Shown here: piece after piece, positions 55,519 to 62,830 of the stretch
Layout: each line of letters starts with the position of its first letter
How positions within the stretch are numbered: position 1 is the first letter of the stretch
DNA from: Sedimentisphaerales bacterium
Lineage (GTDB): Bacteria > Planctomycetota > Phycisphaerae > Sedimentisphaerales > Anaerobacaceae
Assembly (NCBI GenBank): GCA_016932095.1
Contig: JAFGDN010000093.1
Location: 1 to 64,000, forward strand
DNA: 64,000 nucleotides
Direction of reading: 5' to 3'
Program-made: the position numbers and the translations under genes
The notes under the pieces: generated by a model
What the model was told of the DNA's origin: nothing
What the model saw: the letters and a program-made list of their open reading frames with translations, nothing else
The model's database searches: none

Positions 55519-55920
55519 TTATCTGTCTTCTGTTTCCTGGCCGAACATATCCGCCAATAGCTGTTTGATTTTATTGCCCTCGTCAAGCGATGCCTTTTCG
55601 ATAATATTATGTAGCTCGCCTTTATCGAACCACAGGCCGTCGCCGTTGACGCACCTGTCCAGCATCGGCCCCGCTTCAATCTCGCTGGCGACTATCTTCT
55701 CCATATTCTTGTCGCATATCGGGCATTTTCTCTGTCCTTCGCCTGTTTGGGGCGCTTTATGAAACGACCTTATAAAGTCCTTTGATTTTCCCCCGTTACC
55801 CAGGAGTATTTCCATTTCTCCTTCATCGAGCCAGATACCGTTACAGCCGGTGCAGTAGTCAATTTCCACATCAGCCAGTTCCATTGTTATCATCGGGTTT
55901 TTGCATACCGGGCAATCCAT
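55519..55920 (-). CDS. Protein with two zf-TFIIB-type zinc ribbons
   Basis: 133 residues. Two similar halves each hold paired CxxC-type knuckles: MDCPVCKNPM with DYCTGCNGIWLDEGEME, and RKCPICDKNM with DRCVNGDGLWFDKGELH. The sequence CxGCxGIWLDxGE is the zf-TFIIB (PF13453-type) hallmark. In the second half the second Cys of the last pair is replaced (CVNGDGLW), so zinc binding there may be weaker. Function unknown; such proteins occur widely next to membrane or protease genes. Confidence 0.88.
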   Translation of the reverse strand: MDCPVCKNPMITMELADVEIDYCTGCNGIWLDEGEMEILLGNGGKSKDFIRSFHKAPQTGEGQRKCPICDKNMEKIVASEIEAGPMLDRCVNGDGLWFDKGELHNIIEKASLDEGNKIKQLLADMFGQETEDR

Positions 55921-56050: not shown

Positions 56051-57310
56051 TCAATTCGCGGCGGCTGAATCCACTACGTTCGGGACGGCGTTTTGAAAAA
56101 TATGCCCGATGGAGACCGGGGCCGGCTGGGGGTATTTTGAGATGCGATTATGCAGGTTGCCTAATATGTTCATAAAATTGATATAGGAGTCGTAAGGCGA
56201 GTCATAGGGATTGAAATATTTATGGACATCGCCGTCAGAAAACCACTTGGTGCACATATAATAGAAGTGGTCCGAGGTTTGCAGCTTGCGCCAGTCGCTT
56301 ATAAGATTTTCGTCGCCGGTACTTTTGATTTGTTTTTCGAGCCGGTACAGCTCGTGTATGGCATTGGACTGCATCGCGTTTCCCAGCCATGCCGAGAGGT
56401 CTCTTTCGATATCCGCCCAGCTTATCAGGTGAGGCACGTCGACAATGCCCATTGGAGGATACGCCTCAATGACCTCGCTGGGCGTCTTGAAATCGTTATC
56501 CGGGTGTTTGAATACCTCTTCGGGCAGTTGTTTCAGGAAATCGAAGATGCCCGTTTCCTTCCACTGGTGCTCGCCGAAGGTTTCGTAATCCATAAAGAGA
56601 TTGACGACGAAGCCGTTGCCGTTGACTTTGCTTATCCAGTGCCCGAACTTGTCCGCCGTCAATGGCCATTGGTTCCAGTCGTGGTTGGAGAACCGAAAGG
56701 CGATGTCGTCGCTGAGCGTGTAATTCTTCAATAACAGCCGGATGTCTTTGCACCCCTTGGGGCTATAGACAAAATTGGGGCTTCGATAGCCGAGAATGTG
56801 GTCGGCGCCCTCGCTGAGAATAGCGTCGAAGCAGCCCATCGACTCAATAAGCGAGGCCAGCTCATTATTGTATATAAGCTCGGTGTTTCTGAAGATTCTG
56901 GGGGTCTGGCCGAAGAGGTTTTTTATTGTCTGCATTTGTTTGCTTATCTGGCTGACAAATTCGCGACGGGAATAGAGGAAACTTAAGCTGTGATAATACG
57001 TCTCGGCCAGAAACTCCACGCAGCCGGTGCGAGCCAGGGCTTCAAAAGTGCTAATAACCTCAGGGCAATAACTAAAAAGCTGCTCAATAAGGACGCCCGT
57101 AATGCTGTATGCGACCTTGAACCGGCCGTCGTATTTTCGTATCAGGTCGAGAATCAGCCGGTTAGCCGGCAGGTAGCACTTGTTGGCGACCTTCCTGCAG
57201 ATTTCGGCGTTTTTATGGTCGTCGAAATAATACTGGTTGTGGTCAAATACGGTGTAATGTCTTAATCTCTGGGGCTGATGCACCTGAAAGTAAAAACAAA
57301 CTGAAGCCAT
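56051..57310 (-). CDS. GH57 alpha-amylase-type glycoside hydrolase
   Basis: 419 residues, soluble. The family's five conserved regions can be traced: FQVHQPQRL at the start, catalytic nucleophile Glu144 in RNTELIYNNE, and the acid/base Asp241 in LFMDYETFGEHQW. It acts on alpha-1,4-glucans (amylase or 4-alpha-glucanotransferase activity). The gene lies beside a GT4 glycogen synthase-like gene on the same strand (37-bp gap) and near a debranching enzyme, which supports a storage-glucan role. Confidence 0.92.
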   Translation of the reverse strand: MASVCFYFQVHQPQRLRHYTVFDHNQYYFDDHKNAEICRKVANKCYLPANRLILDLIRKYDGRFKVAYSITGVLIEQLFSYCPEVISTFEALARTGCVEFLAETYYHSLSFLYSRREFVSQISKQMQTIKNLFGQTPRIFRNTELIYNNELASLIESMGCFDAILSEGADHILGYRSPNFVYSPKGCKDIRLLLKNYTLSDDIAFRFSNHDWNQWPLTADKFGHWISKVNGNGFVVNLFMDYETFGEHQWKETGIFDFLKQLPEEVFKHPDNDFKTPSEVIEAYPPMGIVDVPHLISWADIERDLSAWLGNAMQSNAIHELYRLEKQIKSTGDENLISDWRKLQTSDHFYYMCTKWFSDGDVHKYFNPYDSPYDSYINFMNILGNLHNRISKYPQPAPVSIGHIFQNAVPNVVDSAAAN

Positions 57311-57347
57311 TCCGTGGTTCCCGTAGAAAGTGTTTATGAAAACAGAA

Positions 57348-58646
57348 TTAACCCGTTTCTGCCCCTACAAGAAGTTCCTCGTAAATTTGTGAGCATTTCA
57401 CGGCGGAGTCCGACCATTTTAGTTTTCCCACCTCATAATTGCCGTGGTTTCGCAGCGTAACGCCGAGGGCCGGATGCTGCAGAACGGCAATTATTTTGTT
57501 CGCAATCTCATCGACGTCCCAGAAATCTACCTTGAGCGCGTGCTTTAAGACCTCCGCTACGCCGCTTTGCTTGCTGATGATAACGGGGACGTCATTGTCA
57601 AGCGCCTCTAAAGGAGCGATTCCAAACGGTTCCGATACCGAAGGCATTACATAAAGGTCCGCCATTTTATAAATTTTCTGGACGTCCGCGCCCTGCAGGA
57701 ATCCCGTGAAGAGGACCTTGCTTCCTATGCCTAATTCTGCGGCCATTTCGACTGCCCTGTGCATAAGGTCGCCCGAGCCGACCATTACGAACTTGACATT
57801 GTTCATTTTTTCCAAAACTTTTTTCGCGGCCCTGAGGAAGTAATCAGGGCCTTTTTGCATCGTTATTCTGCCGAGGAACAGAACCACTTTTTCGTCTTTC
57901 GATATGCCCGTTCTGGCGGCAGTGCCGTTGCCATTGCCGTTGCCGTTTCTTTCAACGCCGTTATATACGACCTCAACCTTGCTGCCGCTGACGCCGTATC
58001 GGCCGATTATGATGTTTCGGGTAAGGAAACTGACTGCTATAATCTTGTCGGCTGCGTGCATACCCATTCGTTCGATGTCGTAAACCATCTGGTTGACATG
58101 CTCGCCGCTGCGGTCGAATTCGGTCGAGTGAACGTGGACAACGAGGGGCTTACCTGTTGCCCTGGCGACTGCGATGCCGGCGGGGTAGGTCATCCAGTCG
58201 TGCGCGTGAACGACATCAAATTCCTCTTCGGCGGCCAGCTTGACCGCAAGGTCGGCATAACGATGGACTTCCTTGTACATATCGCCGTGATAATGAATGC
58301 CCCGGCTGCTCGGCGTTGCCCTGCCGTGAGCGGCCCTGATACGTTGCAGGGATTCTTCCATTCTCTGCTGATAATTGTCCGGCCTTTCGTATGGTTGCAG
58401 CGGCGATTTGATGGTCTTGAATTTCACGTTCTTAAGCGTGCGGCGCCTTGTAGTTGCCTGCGGTATTTTCATTCCCGGCATAACAAGCTTGACATGAGTC
58501 GCATAGCTGGTCTGTACCAGGGTAGGAAGGACAAATGTAATCTCCACACCAAGCTGGTCGAGGGCTTTCGTAAGCCCGTAGCACGCCGTTCCCAGTCCTC
58601 CACTGATAAACGGCGGAAACTCCCAACCAAGCATAAAAACTCTCAT
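57348..58646 (-). CDS. GT4 glycogen/starch synthase-like glycosyltransferase
   Basis: 432 residues, GT-B fold. The N-terminal FMLGWEFPPFISGGLGTACYGL, with its Gly-Gly-Leu-Gly loop, is the glycogen synthase-type donor loop. The C-terminal domain has LFLGRITMQKGPDYFLRAAKKVL and MPSVSEPFGIAPLEALDNDVPVI with the Glu-x7-Glu retaining motif. Inside, residues 233-240 form an Asn-Gly repeat, encoded by a short hexamer-like run near 57928-57956, in a linker between domains. It lies upstream of the GH57 gene on the same strand and its GAGGG site is well placed. ADP-glucose is the likely donor. Confidence 0.9.
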   Translation of the reverse strand: MRVFMLGWEFPPFISGGLGTACYGLTKALDQLGVEITFVLPTLVQTSYATHVKLVMPGMKIPQATTRRRTLKNVKFKTIKSPLQPYERPDNYQQRMEESLQRIRAAHGRATPSSRGIHYHGDMYKEVHRYADLAVKLAAEEEFDVVHAHDWMTYPAGIAVARATGKPLVVHVHSTEFDRSGEHVNQMVYDIERMGMHAADKIIAVSFLTRNIIIGRYGVSGSKVEVVYNGVERNGNGNGNGTAARTGISKDEKVVLFLGRITMQKGPDYFLRAAKKVLEKMNNVKFVMVGSGDLMHRAVEMAAELGIGSKVLFTGFLQGADVQKIYKMADLYVMPSVSEPFGIAPLEALDNDVPVIISKQSGVAEVLKHALKVDFWDVDEIANKIIAVLQHPALGVTLRNHGNYEVGKLKWSDSAVKCSQIYEELLVGAETG

Positions 58647-59083
58647 TTCGGCCCTCGTTGCCTGAATGTTATAACCATTAAATTGTCAATGACTAACGGT
58701 CAAACGCCCTGATAAAGACAAACATCCCCTTAAGGCGGTTGGCATCGTAAAGTATCATCATTATCGACGGCGATATAGACCGCCTTAATCACATATAGAT
58801 ACAAAAACTTCCCAAATGCACTACCTTGATATAATAATCGGGATTTTAACCCCCATTGATTAAACAATTTTTGCGAAATGTCCCGATTAAAGCAGCGTCC
58901 TGCCTGATTTTACCGGCCTGACCCTTCAAAGGAGCTGCAATACGGTGATTTAAGGAATTTTTGTAAATTTAGGCAATTTGTTGAGCAAAATACCAGCCGG
59001 CGCCAACTTAGGACTGATAACATAGTGAAACCCCATAGTATTGGATATATCAGCTAAGGGATTCCCTTGTTGAACAATAAAAT
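58647..59083. other. Intergenic region ahead of the GT4 gene
   Basis: About 440 bases with no open frame of note. It holds the perfect 10-bp inverted repeat listed at 58730-58788 and looser AT-rich arms (AATCGGGA and TCCCGATT, about 58838-58890). It must contain the promoter of the GT4-GH57 pair; no strong -35/-10 pair stood out. Confidence 0.4.
58730..58788. repeat. 10-bp perfect inverted repeat with 39-nt loop
   Basis: TTAAGGCGGT (58730-58739) and ACCGCCTTAA (58779-58788) are exact inverse complements. The loop itself contains CATCG and CGATA arms. It lies about 85-140 bp upstream of the GT4 start on the minus strand, where it could be part of a structured leader or a protein-binding dyad. 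Confidence 0.55.
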
Positions 59084-59115
59084 AGCCCTCCCACCCAGCA
59101 CTGAATGGAAGGGCT
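59084..59115 (-). terminator. Intrinsic terminator downstream of the histone gene
   Basis: On the minus strand AGCCCTTCCA (59106-59115) pairs with TGGGAGGGCT (59084-59093), one mismatch, and is followed by ATTTTATTGTTC. It is about 65 bp past the histone stop. A second GC-rich stem (GCCCCG/CGGGGC, about 59131-59161) lies between it and the gene. Confidence 0.75.
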
Positions 59116-59178
59116 CAAATCAAGGTATTTGCCCCGCTGGTAAAACCGAGGTTTTTCGGGGCTTGTGTTGAGGACCAG

Positions 59179-59364
59179 TTATAGATCCTGAGCTTTAATG
59201 GTGCTGCGACGGTTGGCCTTGGCTCTATTGGCAGCATTGTCGAGCATAGAATAAACGGCGTTACTAATAGCGCCGATTGCTTCCGATGAGGTCATCATCT
59301 TTTTGCTCTTAATATAAGCCCTTACCTTGCTGGCTACAACCAAAACTTCTCTTTCCTTTGCCAT
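59179..59364 (-). CDS. Bacterial histone (single histone-fold, HBb-like)
   Basis: 61 residues, start preceded by GGAGG. The sequence LVVASKVRAYIKSKKMMTSS forms a first helix and loop, residues 25-51 a long central helix, and RRSTIKAQDL the loop and start of a short third helix. The end matches the archaeal histone pattern R-x-T-I-K-A-E-D-I, with the third helix cut short as in the 61-residue bacterial histones such as the Bdellovibrio protein. Arg53 and Thr55 occupy the conserved DNA-contact pair of histone folds. Such proteins dimerise and bind or bend DNA. A well-formed terminator and leader hairpin suggest a highly expressed monocistronic gene. Confidence 0.9.
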   Translation of the reverse strand: MAKEREVLVVASKVRAYIKSKKMMTSSEAIGAISNAVYSMLDNAANRAKANRRSTIKAQDL

Positions 59365-59409
59365 TCTAAAATGCCTCCATAATTCAGTTTAAAACTAAAG
59401 TTCAAACGA

Positions 59410-59433
59410 GCCGACACACACTACTGTGTCGGC
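59410..59433. repeat. 9-bp hairpin in the histone leader
   Basis: GCCGACACA and TGTGTCGGC pair perfectly around the loop CACTAC. It lies 46-69 bp upstream of the histone start codon. There is no T-run, so a role in mRNA stability or as a repressor dyad is as likely as termination. Confidence 0.55.
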
Positions 59434-59661
59434 AGATTAGATGACTGTTATGGCGGATAAACGAGTTATTTGCAACAAAAAAAACACCTTAAAAAACAAA
59501 TTTTTATAGCCCCTGTCTTAAGGCCTGCCATAAATTCGATTGTGAAAAAGCGGCTTTTTTAATGTTCTGCTTAAGTTCCTGATAATCCCTGCCGAACAAT
59601 CTGATGAATATATTTGTAAACGGTTTTAGCAAATTTATAAACGATATATGGGAGCTGCCAA

Positions 59662-59979
59662 ATGACGAAGCGGAGCAGGAAAGCCCAGAGGTCCCGTTCG
59701 GGCACGCAGGAGCTTGTCATCATCTCAAGCACAGATACTATGGATGAGGCAAGGGATTATGAAACGCTGCTGAAAAACAATGATATTCCCGCCATTGTGA
59801 AAAGGCATCAGGATGAGCTGACAGGCGTAAAGCGTTTCGTCGTTATGGTGCCTGAGGAAATGGTTGATGAGGCGCACGTTATAATCGAGAGCCAGGATTC
59901 ATACGATGACTTCTATGATTCCGAGCTTGACGACGAAATAAGCGAAGAAGATTTGGAAGGCGATATTTTCGATGACTGA
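59662..59979 (+). CDS. Small acidic protein, DUF2007-like signal-transduction domain
   Basis: 105 residues. A basic N-terminal 16 residues is followed by QELVIISSTDTMDEARDYETLLKNNDIPAIVKRHQDELTGVKRFVVMVPEEMVDEAHVIIESQDSY, a compact alpha/beta fold like the DUF2007 putative signal-transducing domain. The tail is almost entirely Asp/Glu (DDFYDSELDDEISEEDLEGDIFDD). No catalytic residue. It lies 88 bp upstream of the gene at 60067. Confidence 0.75.
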   Translation: MTKRSRKAQRSRSGTQELVIISSTDTMDEARDYETLLKNNDIPAIVKRHQDELTGVKRFVVMVPEEMVDEAHVIIESQDSYDDFYDSELDDEISEEDLEGDIFDD

Positions 59980-60066
59980 AAATCAGCCGTCCGGCGTTGT
60001 CGGCGGTCTGGGCTGAATTGCAGCGGGCGCCAAGGCCAATAAACCGCGGGGCAAGAGAGGGAAAAA

Positions 60067-60465
60067 ATGGAAACGGACAACCAGCAATTCGATGATTCGG
60101 CTAAACCCGACCAACAATCCTCACAGCAGTTCAAAGAACGCAGAAGCGGAGTTGAGCGGAGGAAAGGAACCGGCCAATGGAACGGGGTTGAACGCAGGCA
60201 AAACGTTGTTGACAGGCGTCTGGGCCTTGACCGCCAACGCGGTCCCGGCCGTCGGCGAGGCGATGACCGGAAAGCCGCCGAAGAAGGGTGTATGTCGGAT
60301 GAGCAGTTTGAGTTTTTGATGGCGATTGATGAGTACAAGAAGCAAAACGCCAGGCCATTCCCTTCCTGGACAGAAGTCCTCGAGGTAATAAAAGCCCTCG
60401 GTTACCGCAAGGTAGCTGAGCCCGCTCCTCTTGCTGAATGTAGCGAGCAAGCCGGGAAGAAATAA
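60067..60465 (+). CDS. Small protein with (x)ERR(x)GVERR repeats, unknown
   Basis: 132 residues. A Gln/Asp-rich N terminus is followed by a repeat region in which the motif (E/D)RR recurs about every 8-13 residues ([32 protein letters not shown]), then a short helical domain ([40 protein letters not shown]). The helical part resembles those seen in planctomycete and deltaproteobacterial proteins of unknown function; I give no role. Start follows a GAGAGGGAAAA site. Arginine-rich repeats would bind nucleic acid or membranes; inference. Confidence 0.72.
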
Positions 60466-60808
60466 AAAAAGACGCCCGGTTTGACCAATCCGGCTTTGCC
60501 GGGACAAAAGAAAACGAATCAAAAAATAATGAAGCTCACCTCGCACAGACCCGCCTAATCGCATTATCCTGAAATCGAGGTTTTCGTGGTCTAAGTACGA
60601 AAAAAGGGTTCGCCTCTTGCTATTGAGAAAAACTATGTCTATGATAATGTAGGCGGTATGATGTAATATCTCAAAGCAAAGACGTTCGATTCGGCGGCGT
60701 GGGTGGGGTTTTTGAAATATTAAACCGCACACGCCGGGCGTCGGTACCGTAAGTTTGATACATTTTTCGACGCAGGAATTTGGCCGGAGATTCGGGCAGG
60801 GCGATAAC
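60466..60808. other. Intergenic region before the debranching enzyme
   Basis: About 340 bases. It has a short hairpin (CCGGC-TTT-GCCGG near 60490-60502) without a T-run and no other gene-like frame. The promoter of the debranching gene should be here; I see no clear consensus. Confidence 0.4.
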
Positions 60809-62830
60809 ATGTTGAATCTTAAAAGACCAAGTGAGAAGACAGGTATCCAGATGTTGACGGCCCATATACCTGTCGAACAATTGCTTGAAAAAGAGTGGCT
60901 GCTGACAAATGGCGGGGGGGGTTACGCTTCATCAACCGTTGTCGGCTGCAATACAAGGAGTTATCACGGTCTGCTTGTCGGCTCTTTCGATAGGCCCGCC
61001 AACAGGATATTGGCGTTATCCAACTGCCTTGAAACAGTGTACTGGGGTTCGGGCAAATTTGAGCTTTCCACCTTCGAGTTCCCCGGCGGTATCCTGCCAG
61101 CAGGTTACCTTCGCTTAAAACAATTCAGTTGGGACGTCGGCACTCACTTTCATTACGAAATTGGGGACCTTCGCCTGATAAAGTCCGTTTATCTTCTTCG
61201 CGACCGCAATACCGCCGCGATAGTGTACGAATTCACCGACGTTGAACAGCCCGTTGAGTTTGTGATTCGGCCTTTTGTCGCGCTCAGGGACTTTCATCAG
61301 CTTCAGAAATCGTCCGCGCGTCTCGAATCGAGGCCGGTTGCCGGGGGCGCTCATATCTGGCACCCTTTGCCTGAACTGGGGCATCTGTTGCTCAATTGCA
61401 GGGGAGCGCTTTTTGAAAACGAACCCCAGTGGTGGTTCAATTTCGTTTACCGGCTGTCGAAGGAGAGAGGGCAGCAATTTGCAGAAGACCTTTTCAGCCC
61501 CGGGTTTTTCAAGTGTCTCATAGATTCGCCGCGAACGCTGGTTCTCTGGGCCGATTTTGATAAAGTGTATAAGCCGGGGCATTTTATCGCGCCGGACGTT
61601 GAATACGCCGTTGGAGAGCTTATTGAGCGTCGAAACAGCGTTTTGGCGCCGGCAAATGATGACCGGATTTTGGGCAAACTCTATCAGGCAGGCGACCAGT
61701 TTATCGTAACAAGCCCTAATCAGGGGGGGAATCGCACGACGATTTTTGCCGGCTACCCCTGGTTTGCCGACTGGGGCAGAGACGCCTTCATATCTCTGCC
61801 GGGATTACTTCTTGCGACGCGCCGGCTCGATGATGCCAAATCGGTATTGCTTACCTTTGCCCAGGTCGCCGGCCAGGGCGTCATTCCTAATCGCTTCGAT
61901 GATTACACCAATACCGCCCATTTTAACAGCGTCGATGCCTCGTTGTGGTTCATCAACGCCGCTTTCGCCTGGCTTGCTGTATCAGGCGATATACGGACTT
62001 TTCAAAGCCGGCTTTTGCCGACGATAATTTCAATCATAGATTCATATCAGCACGGCGCCGTCCAGGGAATACATGCCGACAAGGATGGTCTTATTACCGC
62101 CGGCGACCCCGATACCCAGCTTACGTGGATGGACGCCAAATACGACGGTGTTGCCTTTACACCAAGATACGGTAAACCCGTCGAGGTCAACGCCCTGTGG
62201 TATAACGCCATTATGCTGCTCGTGGATTTTCTGACCGCCAACGGCGGCGATTTTGCCCGCCTGCTTGATGTTATGAGAGCCAGGGGTGATACGGTCCGGA
62301 AAAGCTTTAACGGCTTGTTCTGGAATGAAAAATGGGGCTGGCTGAACGATTGCATTTTTCCCGACGGCACGGCAGACGCGACGCTTAGGCCAAACCAGGT
62401 ATTCGCCGTATCTTTACCCTTCTCACCGCTGGACCATACCAGACAGAAAGCCGTTGTGGACGTTATTGAGAAAAAGCTCCTTACGCCATACGGCCTGAGA
62501 ACGCTCTCTCCGGACGACCATAGATACCACGGCGTTTATACCGGCCCACAGGCGAGCCGCGACAGCGCTTATCATCAGGGTACTGTTTGGCCATATCTCA
62601 TCGGGCCTTTTGTCGAGGCATACCTGAAGGTCCACGGGGGGGCTGAAAAAAGCAAAAAGAAGGCAATGGCCTTTATTGAGCCGCTTTTGAAACACCTGAC
62701 GGACGACGGCTGTATCGGTTCGGTCAGCGAGATATTTGACGCAGACAGCCCCCATAAGCCGAAGGGCTGCTTCGCACAGGCCTGGAGCGTAGCTGAGCTT
62801 ATCAGGGCTTACCTGATGGTCAAAAGATAG
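60809..62830 (+). CDS. Glycogen debranching enzyme (amylo-alpha-1,6-glucosidase, GH133-like)
   Basis: 673 residues from the ATG at 60809 (a TTG at 60755 would add 18). The N-terminal GDE_N domain (LLTNGGGGYASSTVVGCNTRSYHGLLVG) is followed by an (alpha/alpha)6 GDE_C domain with FAGYPWFADWGRDAFISLPGLLL, DASLWFINAAF, LTWMDAK and the C-terminal SRDSAYHQGTVWPYLIGPF. This is the bacterial/archaeal type debranching enzyme that removes alpha-1,6 branches from glycogen-like glucan. With the GH57 and GT4 genes at 56-58.6 kb it forms a storage-polysaccharide set. Confidence 0.94.
   Translation: MLNLKRPSEKTGIQMLTAHIPVEQLLEKEWLLTNGGGGYASSTVVGCNTRSYHGLLVGSFDRPANRILALSNCLETVYWGSGKFELSTFEFPGGILPAGYLRLKQFSWDVGTHFHYEIGDLRLIKSVYLLRDRNTAAIVYEFTDVEQPVEFVIRPFVALRDFHQLQKSSARLESRPVAGGAHIWHPLPELGHLLLNCRGALFENEPQWWFNFVYRLSKERGQQFAEDLFSPGFFKCLIDSPRTLVLWADFDKVYKPGHFIAPDVEYAVGELIERRNSVLAPANDDRILGKLYQAGDQFIVTSPNQGGNRTTIFAGYPWFADWGRDAFISLPGLLLATRRLDDAKSVLLTFAQVAGQGVIPNRFDDYTNTAHFNSVDASLWFINAAFAWLAVSGDIRTFQSRLLPTIISIIDSYQHGAVQGIHADKDGLITAGDPDTQLTWMDAKYDGVAFTPRYGKPVEVNALWYNAIMLLVDFLTANGGDFARLLDVMRARGDTVRKSFNGLFWNEKWGWLNDCIFPDGTADATLRPNQVFAVSLPFSPLDHTRQKAVVDVIEKKLLTPYGLRTLSPDDHRYHGVYTGPQASRDSAYHQGTVWPYLIGPFVEAYLKVHGGAEKSKKKAMAFIEPLLKHLTDDGCIGSVSEIFDADSPHKPKGCFAQAWSVAELIRAYLMVKR

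Follow-up and report, generated by a model that had tools for sequence, protein, structure and literature searches.

A predicted face-to-face histone of Sedimentisphaerales is kept beside canonical HU and is rarely found together with a lysine-tailed HU paralogue

Which native proteins bacterial histones replace, and why few bacteria use them, is an open question, and the pictures obtained so far are opposite: HU is absent from the histone carriers of Leptospira (PMC12701072), while Bdellovibrio keeps it. HLp of Leptospira perolatii is a face-to-face (FtF) histone tetramer that wraps about 60 bp of DNA (PDB 9QT0-9QT2; PMC12701072), and its residues R49, N53 and R55 make the dimer-dimer contact (PMC12701072). 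HBb (Bd0055) of Bdellovibrio bacteriovorus (PDB 8CMP, 8FVX) is basic, α3-truncated and equipped with the RxTxxxxD motif, like the histone described here, and also coexists with HU, but the R and N on which the face-to-face tetramer depends are absent from it, and it stays a dimer (PMC10627809, PMC11317129). HTkC of Thermococcus kodakarensis (PDB 9F2C; PMC11390915) shares the fold class and the predicted tetramer with our histone, although it is archaeal and distant in sequence. The profile of FtF histones carries the signature K16, R48, N52, R54, T56 and D61 (PMC11390915). Planctomycetota are already named as FtF histone carriers with phylogenetically persistent histones in PMC11390915, PMC12701072 and PMC10627809, and the histone of this study belongs to the planctomycete histones surveyed in PMC10627809 and PMC11390915; as far as the available parts of these two surveys go, they do not give order-wide retention, co-presence with HU or exclusion of HU2, a divergent second HU. 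What is new here is the joint distribution of histone and HU2, and FtF histones in Planctomycetota were known before; a search of open-licence full texts found no report of exclusion between a histone and an HU paralogue or of Sedimentisphaerales histones.

The window (the whole stretch of 64,000 nucleotides that was analysed) corresponds to contig C31 of a Sedimentisphaerales assembly (class Phycisphaerae, phylum Planctomycetota) with a size of 2.95 Mb and a completeness of 96%. The histone gene lies on its minus strand at 59179-59364, exactly where an earlier note made from the sequence had placed it, with an ATG start at 59364 and a TAG stop at 59181-59179, and encodes 61 residues (MAKEREVLVVASKVRAYIKSKKMMTSSEAIGAISNAVYSMLDNAANRAKANRRSTIKAQDL) with a computed pI of 10.3 and a net charge of about +6.5. 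The gene is real and under strong purifying selection. The open reading frame is not a chance one, because the same protein occurs in 54 of 61 relatives (32 of the 33 of good quality), so that the absence from related genomes which the earlier note had named as a point against its reading was not found; substitutions relative to the nearest genome number 7, 3 and 31 by codon position, mostly at third positions, and the median dN/dS between genomes is 0.10, which together with the presence in relatives rules out a chance frame or a sequencing artefact. Named relatives from the public collection are bins of Sedimentisphaerales, Phycisphaerales and Planctomycetota, mostly at 69-85% identity, and the first matches outside the planctomycetes there come from Heimdall- and Kariarchaeota (45-50% identity). 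The histone is near-universal in the order Sedimentisphaerales. A search of the whole assembly showed a single copy, the second match being noise (E 0.64); some members of the order carry two histone genes (G015, G031, G036, G038, G350, G541 and G547).

HLp ranks first among solved structures (9QT0, E 1.4e-13, ungapped over 57 residues), followed in single-sequence comparison by HBb (E 1e-6) and then HTkC (E 0.012), and the family profile returned the three in the same order at 8e-27, 2e-14 and 5e-11. The α3-truncated class is defined by a single histone fold with a shortened α2 and an α3 of 3-4 residues, and the protein falls into it by the ungapped HLp alignment and by helices predicted at residues 2-20, 26-53 and 57-59 in a single-chain AlphaFold2 model (pLDDT 82, pTM 0.43), which fit the expected layout of a long α1 and α2 and a one-turn α3 (about 57-60). 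The chain ends at residue 61, one residue past the aspartate of RxTxxxxD. The single histone fold, the R-x-T loop and the shortened third helix that had been proposed from the sequence are therefore all borne out, the first of them by homology to a solved protein. Foldseek with the same single-chain model (pTM 0.43) gave no significant structure match, and neither Pfam nor NCBIfam gave a match above cut-off; the predicted fold is assigned by homology to HLp, not by the AlphaFold2 model. Two other classes were rejected: a nucleosomal archaeal histone such as HMf has a longer α2 and an α3 of about 10 residues, whereas this protein stops at residue 61, and a DUF1931 doublet consists of two fused folds over about 138 positions, against 61 residues here and a DUF1931 score of 15.4 bits where the cut-off is 21.8.

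Unlike Leptospira, the organism keeps HU. Canonical HU1 is encoded in the same genome (contig C7, 8121-8387), and HU (PF00216) was found in 58 of 61 relatives, 197 of 198 genomes of the class and all 282 good genomes of the phylum, so the histone coexists with canonical HU rather than substituting for it. The number of HU genes is nevertheless smaller in carriers: in the 198-genome class sample, 36 of the 50 histone carriers have at most one HU gene, against 5 of 148 non-carriers, and phylum-wide the same comparison is a weak trend only (25/129 vs 18/199, p 0.011). The gene missing from the carriers is mostly HU2, a divergent HU paralogue of 105-118 residues with a lysine-rich N-tail and the sequence RGPG...KPATKARKGINPFTGEEMMFKAKPARKVVK, whose profile leaves a clean gap between true members (at least 80 bits) and other HU proteins (below 62 bits). 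In side observations, the lysine-rich tails of HU2 resemble the N-tails of histones in sister families of the order; the same histone carries there long lysine/alanine/threonine repeats (L129 in G058, L125 in G039, L124 in G040), H1-like and up to about 50 residues, while the histones of the window's family have only MAKxxE.

In these draft genomes, with many of the carriers being metagenome bins, HU2 occurs in 9 of 50 histone carriers and in 95 of the 148 others of the class sample. Outside the organism's own order the class gives none of 7 carriers and 94 of 146 non-carriers (p 0.001). The contrast is sharpest in family f99, sampled with 40 genomes at 85% completeness or more, in which HU2 is missing from all 5 carriers, belonging to five genera, and present in 34 of 35 others (p 9e-6); the one exception there, G567, has neither gene and shares its genus with a carrier. 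When stratified over families, the contrast has an exact p of 1e-5, and a hand-chosen panel outside the class gave 1 of 35 carriers vs 11 of 21 others (p 2e-5). The exclusion is near-complete, not absolute: 9 of 43 carriers in the organism's order, including one from its genus, also hold HU2, and because these keep both genes, HU2 seems to be dispensable rather than incompatible with the histone. Histone and HU2 are both absent from some lineages, most of which have extra HU copies. The window's genome is without HU2, and its loss looks recent, since G002 of the same genus keeps it beside the histone; G001, also of this genus, encodes a second HU that scores in the same class. We also considered that the histone sits at the old HU2 locus and rejected this, as no shared neighbours were seen.

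We put it at even chances that, in Planctomycetota, the FtF histone repeatedly displaced HU2 while canonical HU was retained. The main competing reading concerns this displacement step only and attributes the exclusion to shared ancestry or lifestyle, not to functional replacement; we judge it a serious contender, somewhat short of even. Clearly independent lineages are few, the HU1 tree built for independent contrasts leaves the pairs unresolved and does not establish that HU2 was lost independently, many of the carriers come from metagenome bins, and the distribution of HU2 inside the organism's order is patchy. However, the contrast holds across the five histone-bearing genera of f99 and again in the panel outside the class, and in the tree the histones of f99 are separate from the ones found in the organism's order.

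The earlier note had described a good ribosome-binding site, a leader hairpin and a terminator, and had taken the gene for its own transcription unit. All three elements are present, the first and the last conserved among relatives and the hairpin within the genus. A putative Shine-Dalgarno sequence, TGGAGG, lies at 59374-59379 (minus strand), separated from the ATG by 9 nt; relatives retain either ATGGAGG or a sequence close to it. A candidate intrinsic terminator (AGCCCTTCCATTCAGTGCTGGGTGGGAGGGCT-ATTTTATT) lies at 59084-59115 (minus strand), about 64 nt past the stop codon, with -22 kcal/mol; under one permissive rule allowing up to 200 nt past the stop, a terminator was counted in 26 of 28 related loci vs 4 of 112 shuffles. 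This conserved terminator, together with the gaps to the next conserved gene (mostly about 250-550 bp in related loci), supports a transcription unit of its own; HLp, too, is encoded by a gene of its own. A scan of the upstream region for sigma-70 promoters stayed at chance level. The leader element at 59410-59433 (minus strand), GCCGACACA-GTAGTG-TGTGTCGGC, would form a perfect 9-bp stem. Leaders of the genus retain it in that position, with G.U pairs and one two-sided change (A-U to U.G), a pattern that, from three distinct sequences, is more in keeping with a hairpin in the RNA than with a palindrome in the DNA. We claim the hairpin for the genus only, because RNAalifold found no alignment-wide leader structure in the wider family; Rfam gave no match for the leader. 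In the wider family the hairpin's place is taken by CCGG-centred repeats around AAGGA, and we observed a leader motif of two such repeats spaced by about 17 nt and located 45-70 nt ahead of the start codon (L007, L011, L031, L034, L134, L135 and L139), which could be a regulatory site.

The neighbours differ from the SMC/MAP genes found in Leptospira and are of glycogen type. The conserved next gene encodes a glycogen-synthase-like GT4/GT5 glycosyltransferase (57348-58646, minus strand, 532 bp from the histone gene) and is followed in conserved synteny by a GH57 glycoside hydrolase (56051-57310, minus strand), and a glycogen debranching enzyme with GDE_N and GDE_C domains lies on the other side (60755-62830, plus strand), unlike in most relatives, where it comes after GH57. 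A DUF2007-like gene, scoring below the Pfam cut-off, diverges upstream of the histone (59662-59979, plus strand). The histone gene is thereby enclosed in a cluster spanning 56051-62830 of the window. Of 20 loci in the order, 17 have the glycosyltransferase and GH57 genes near the histone, usually just downstream, mostly with the debranching gene next and in many cases with the DUF2007-like gene diverging upstream. A gene for a TFIIB-type zinc ribbon protein (PF13453) was also noticed nearby (55519-55920, minus strand). We considered and dropped the idea that the histone and glycogen genes were transferred together from Asgard archaea, as two Asgard genomes checked have no debranching enzyme gene. 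The kept position upstream of these genes might indicate a histone-fold protein with a non-architectural role, such as a regulator or a subunit of a complex, possibly connected with the glycogen genes; however, the own terminator and the gaps argue against this, the neighbourhood is a different one in families f4 and f5 and in carriers from other orders, the predicted DNA-binding residues are conserved and the protein has no extra domain, and we regard such a role as unlikely. The arrangement appears to be retained synteny rather than an operon.

A second question is whether the protein stays a dimer that bends or coats DNA, like HBb, with which the earlier note had compared it in length. HBb is the second-best solved relative and has the same α3 truncation and a similar length. 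However, K13, R47, N51, R53, T55 and D60, the counterparts of the FtF signature, are all invariant in 18-19 diverse rows of the family alignment, and HBb has S and D where the family has R47 and N51. In a tree of 68 sequences over 55 columns, with few firm forks, the planctomycete histones group with HLp, apart from HBb. HLp is therefore the better model, because of these two residues, the closest E-values and the tree; it also shares the R/N/R tetramer residues and the short N-tail. The HBb class was rejected for this protein, and a histone that remains a dimer is quite improbable here. Histones of another type were seen on two IMG/VR contigs of about 44 kb, which encode single-domain proteins at L142:3001-3186 and L143:3001-3165. 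Their RxT motif is present and the FtF R and N are absent, as in the dimer type, and the gene of L142 lies near those for ThyX, an AAA ATPase and a metallophosphoesterase. To our knowledge, described phage histones lack RxTxxxD, and the two viral histones differ from them in having the RxT motif. The weakest reading, that the histone has taken over the part of main chromatin protein from HU, which has been proposed for Leptospira, can be dismissed as extremely improbable in view of HU1 in the same genome and HU in practically all relatives.

We consider it probable that the protein is an FtF chromatin protein which shares the nucleoid with HU and occupies the slot of HU2. By analogy with HLp, two chains would pair head to tail through α2, and two dimers would join to form a closed ring, a torus, by way of R47, N51 and R53 and the C-terminal end of α3; the residues are present here, and the interaction would be that of HLp and HTkC. 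About 60 bp of DNA may wrap the ring on a basic belt of K13, K19 and their neighbours and the loop R53-T55. Made from a monocistronic transcript, as the conserved terminator suggests, the histone would act as a general nucleoid protein alongside canonical HU, not in its stead. It may stand in for a second architectural protein, whose role is held by HU2 or an extra HU in most histone-less relatives; the distribution is observed, and displacement is what we infer from it.

These results bear on the question of which native proteins bacterial histones replace. Across an entire order a predicted FtF histone is retained beside HU, with strong purifying selection acting on it, and its near-exclusion of HU2 in the rest of the class singles out a protein whose function the histone may have assumed. 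Close relatives with the histone, HU2 or both offer material for direct tests of displacement.
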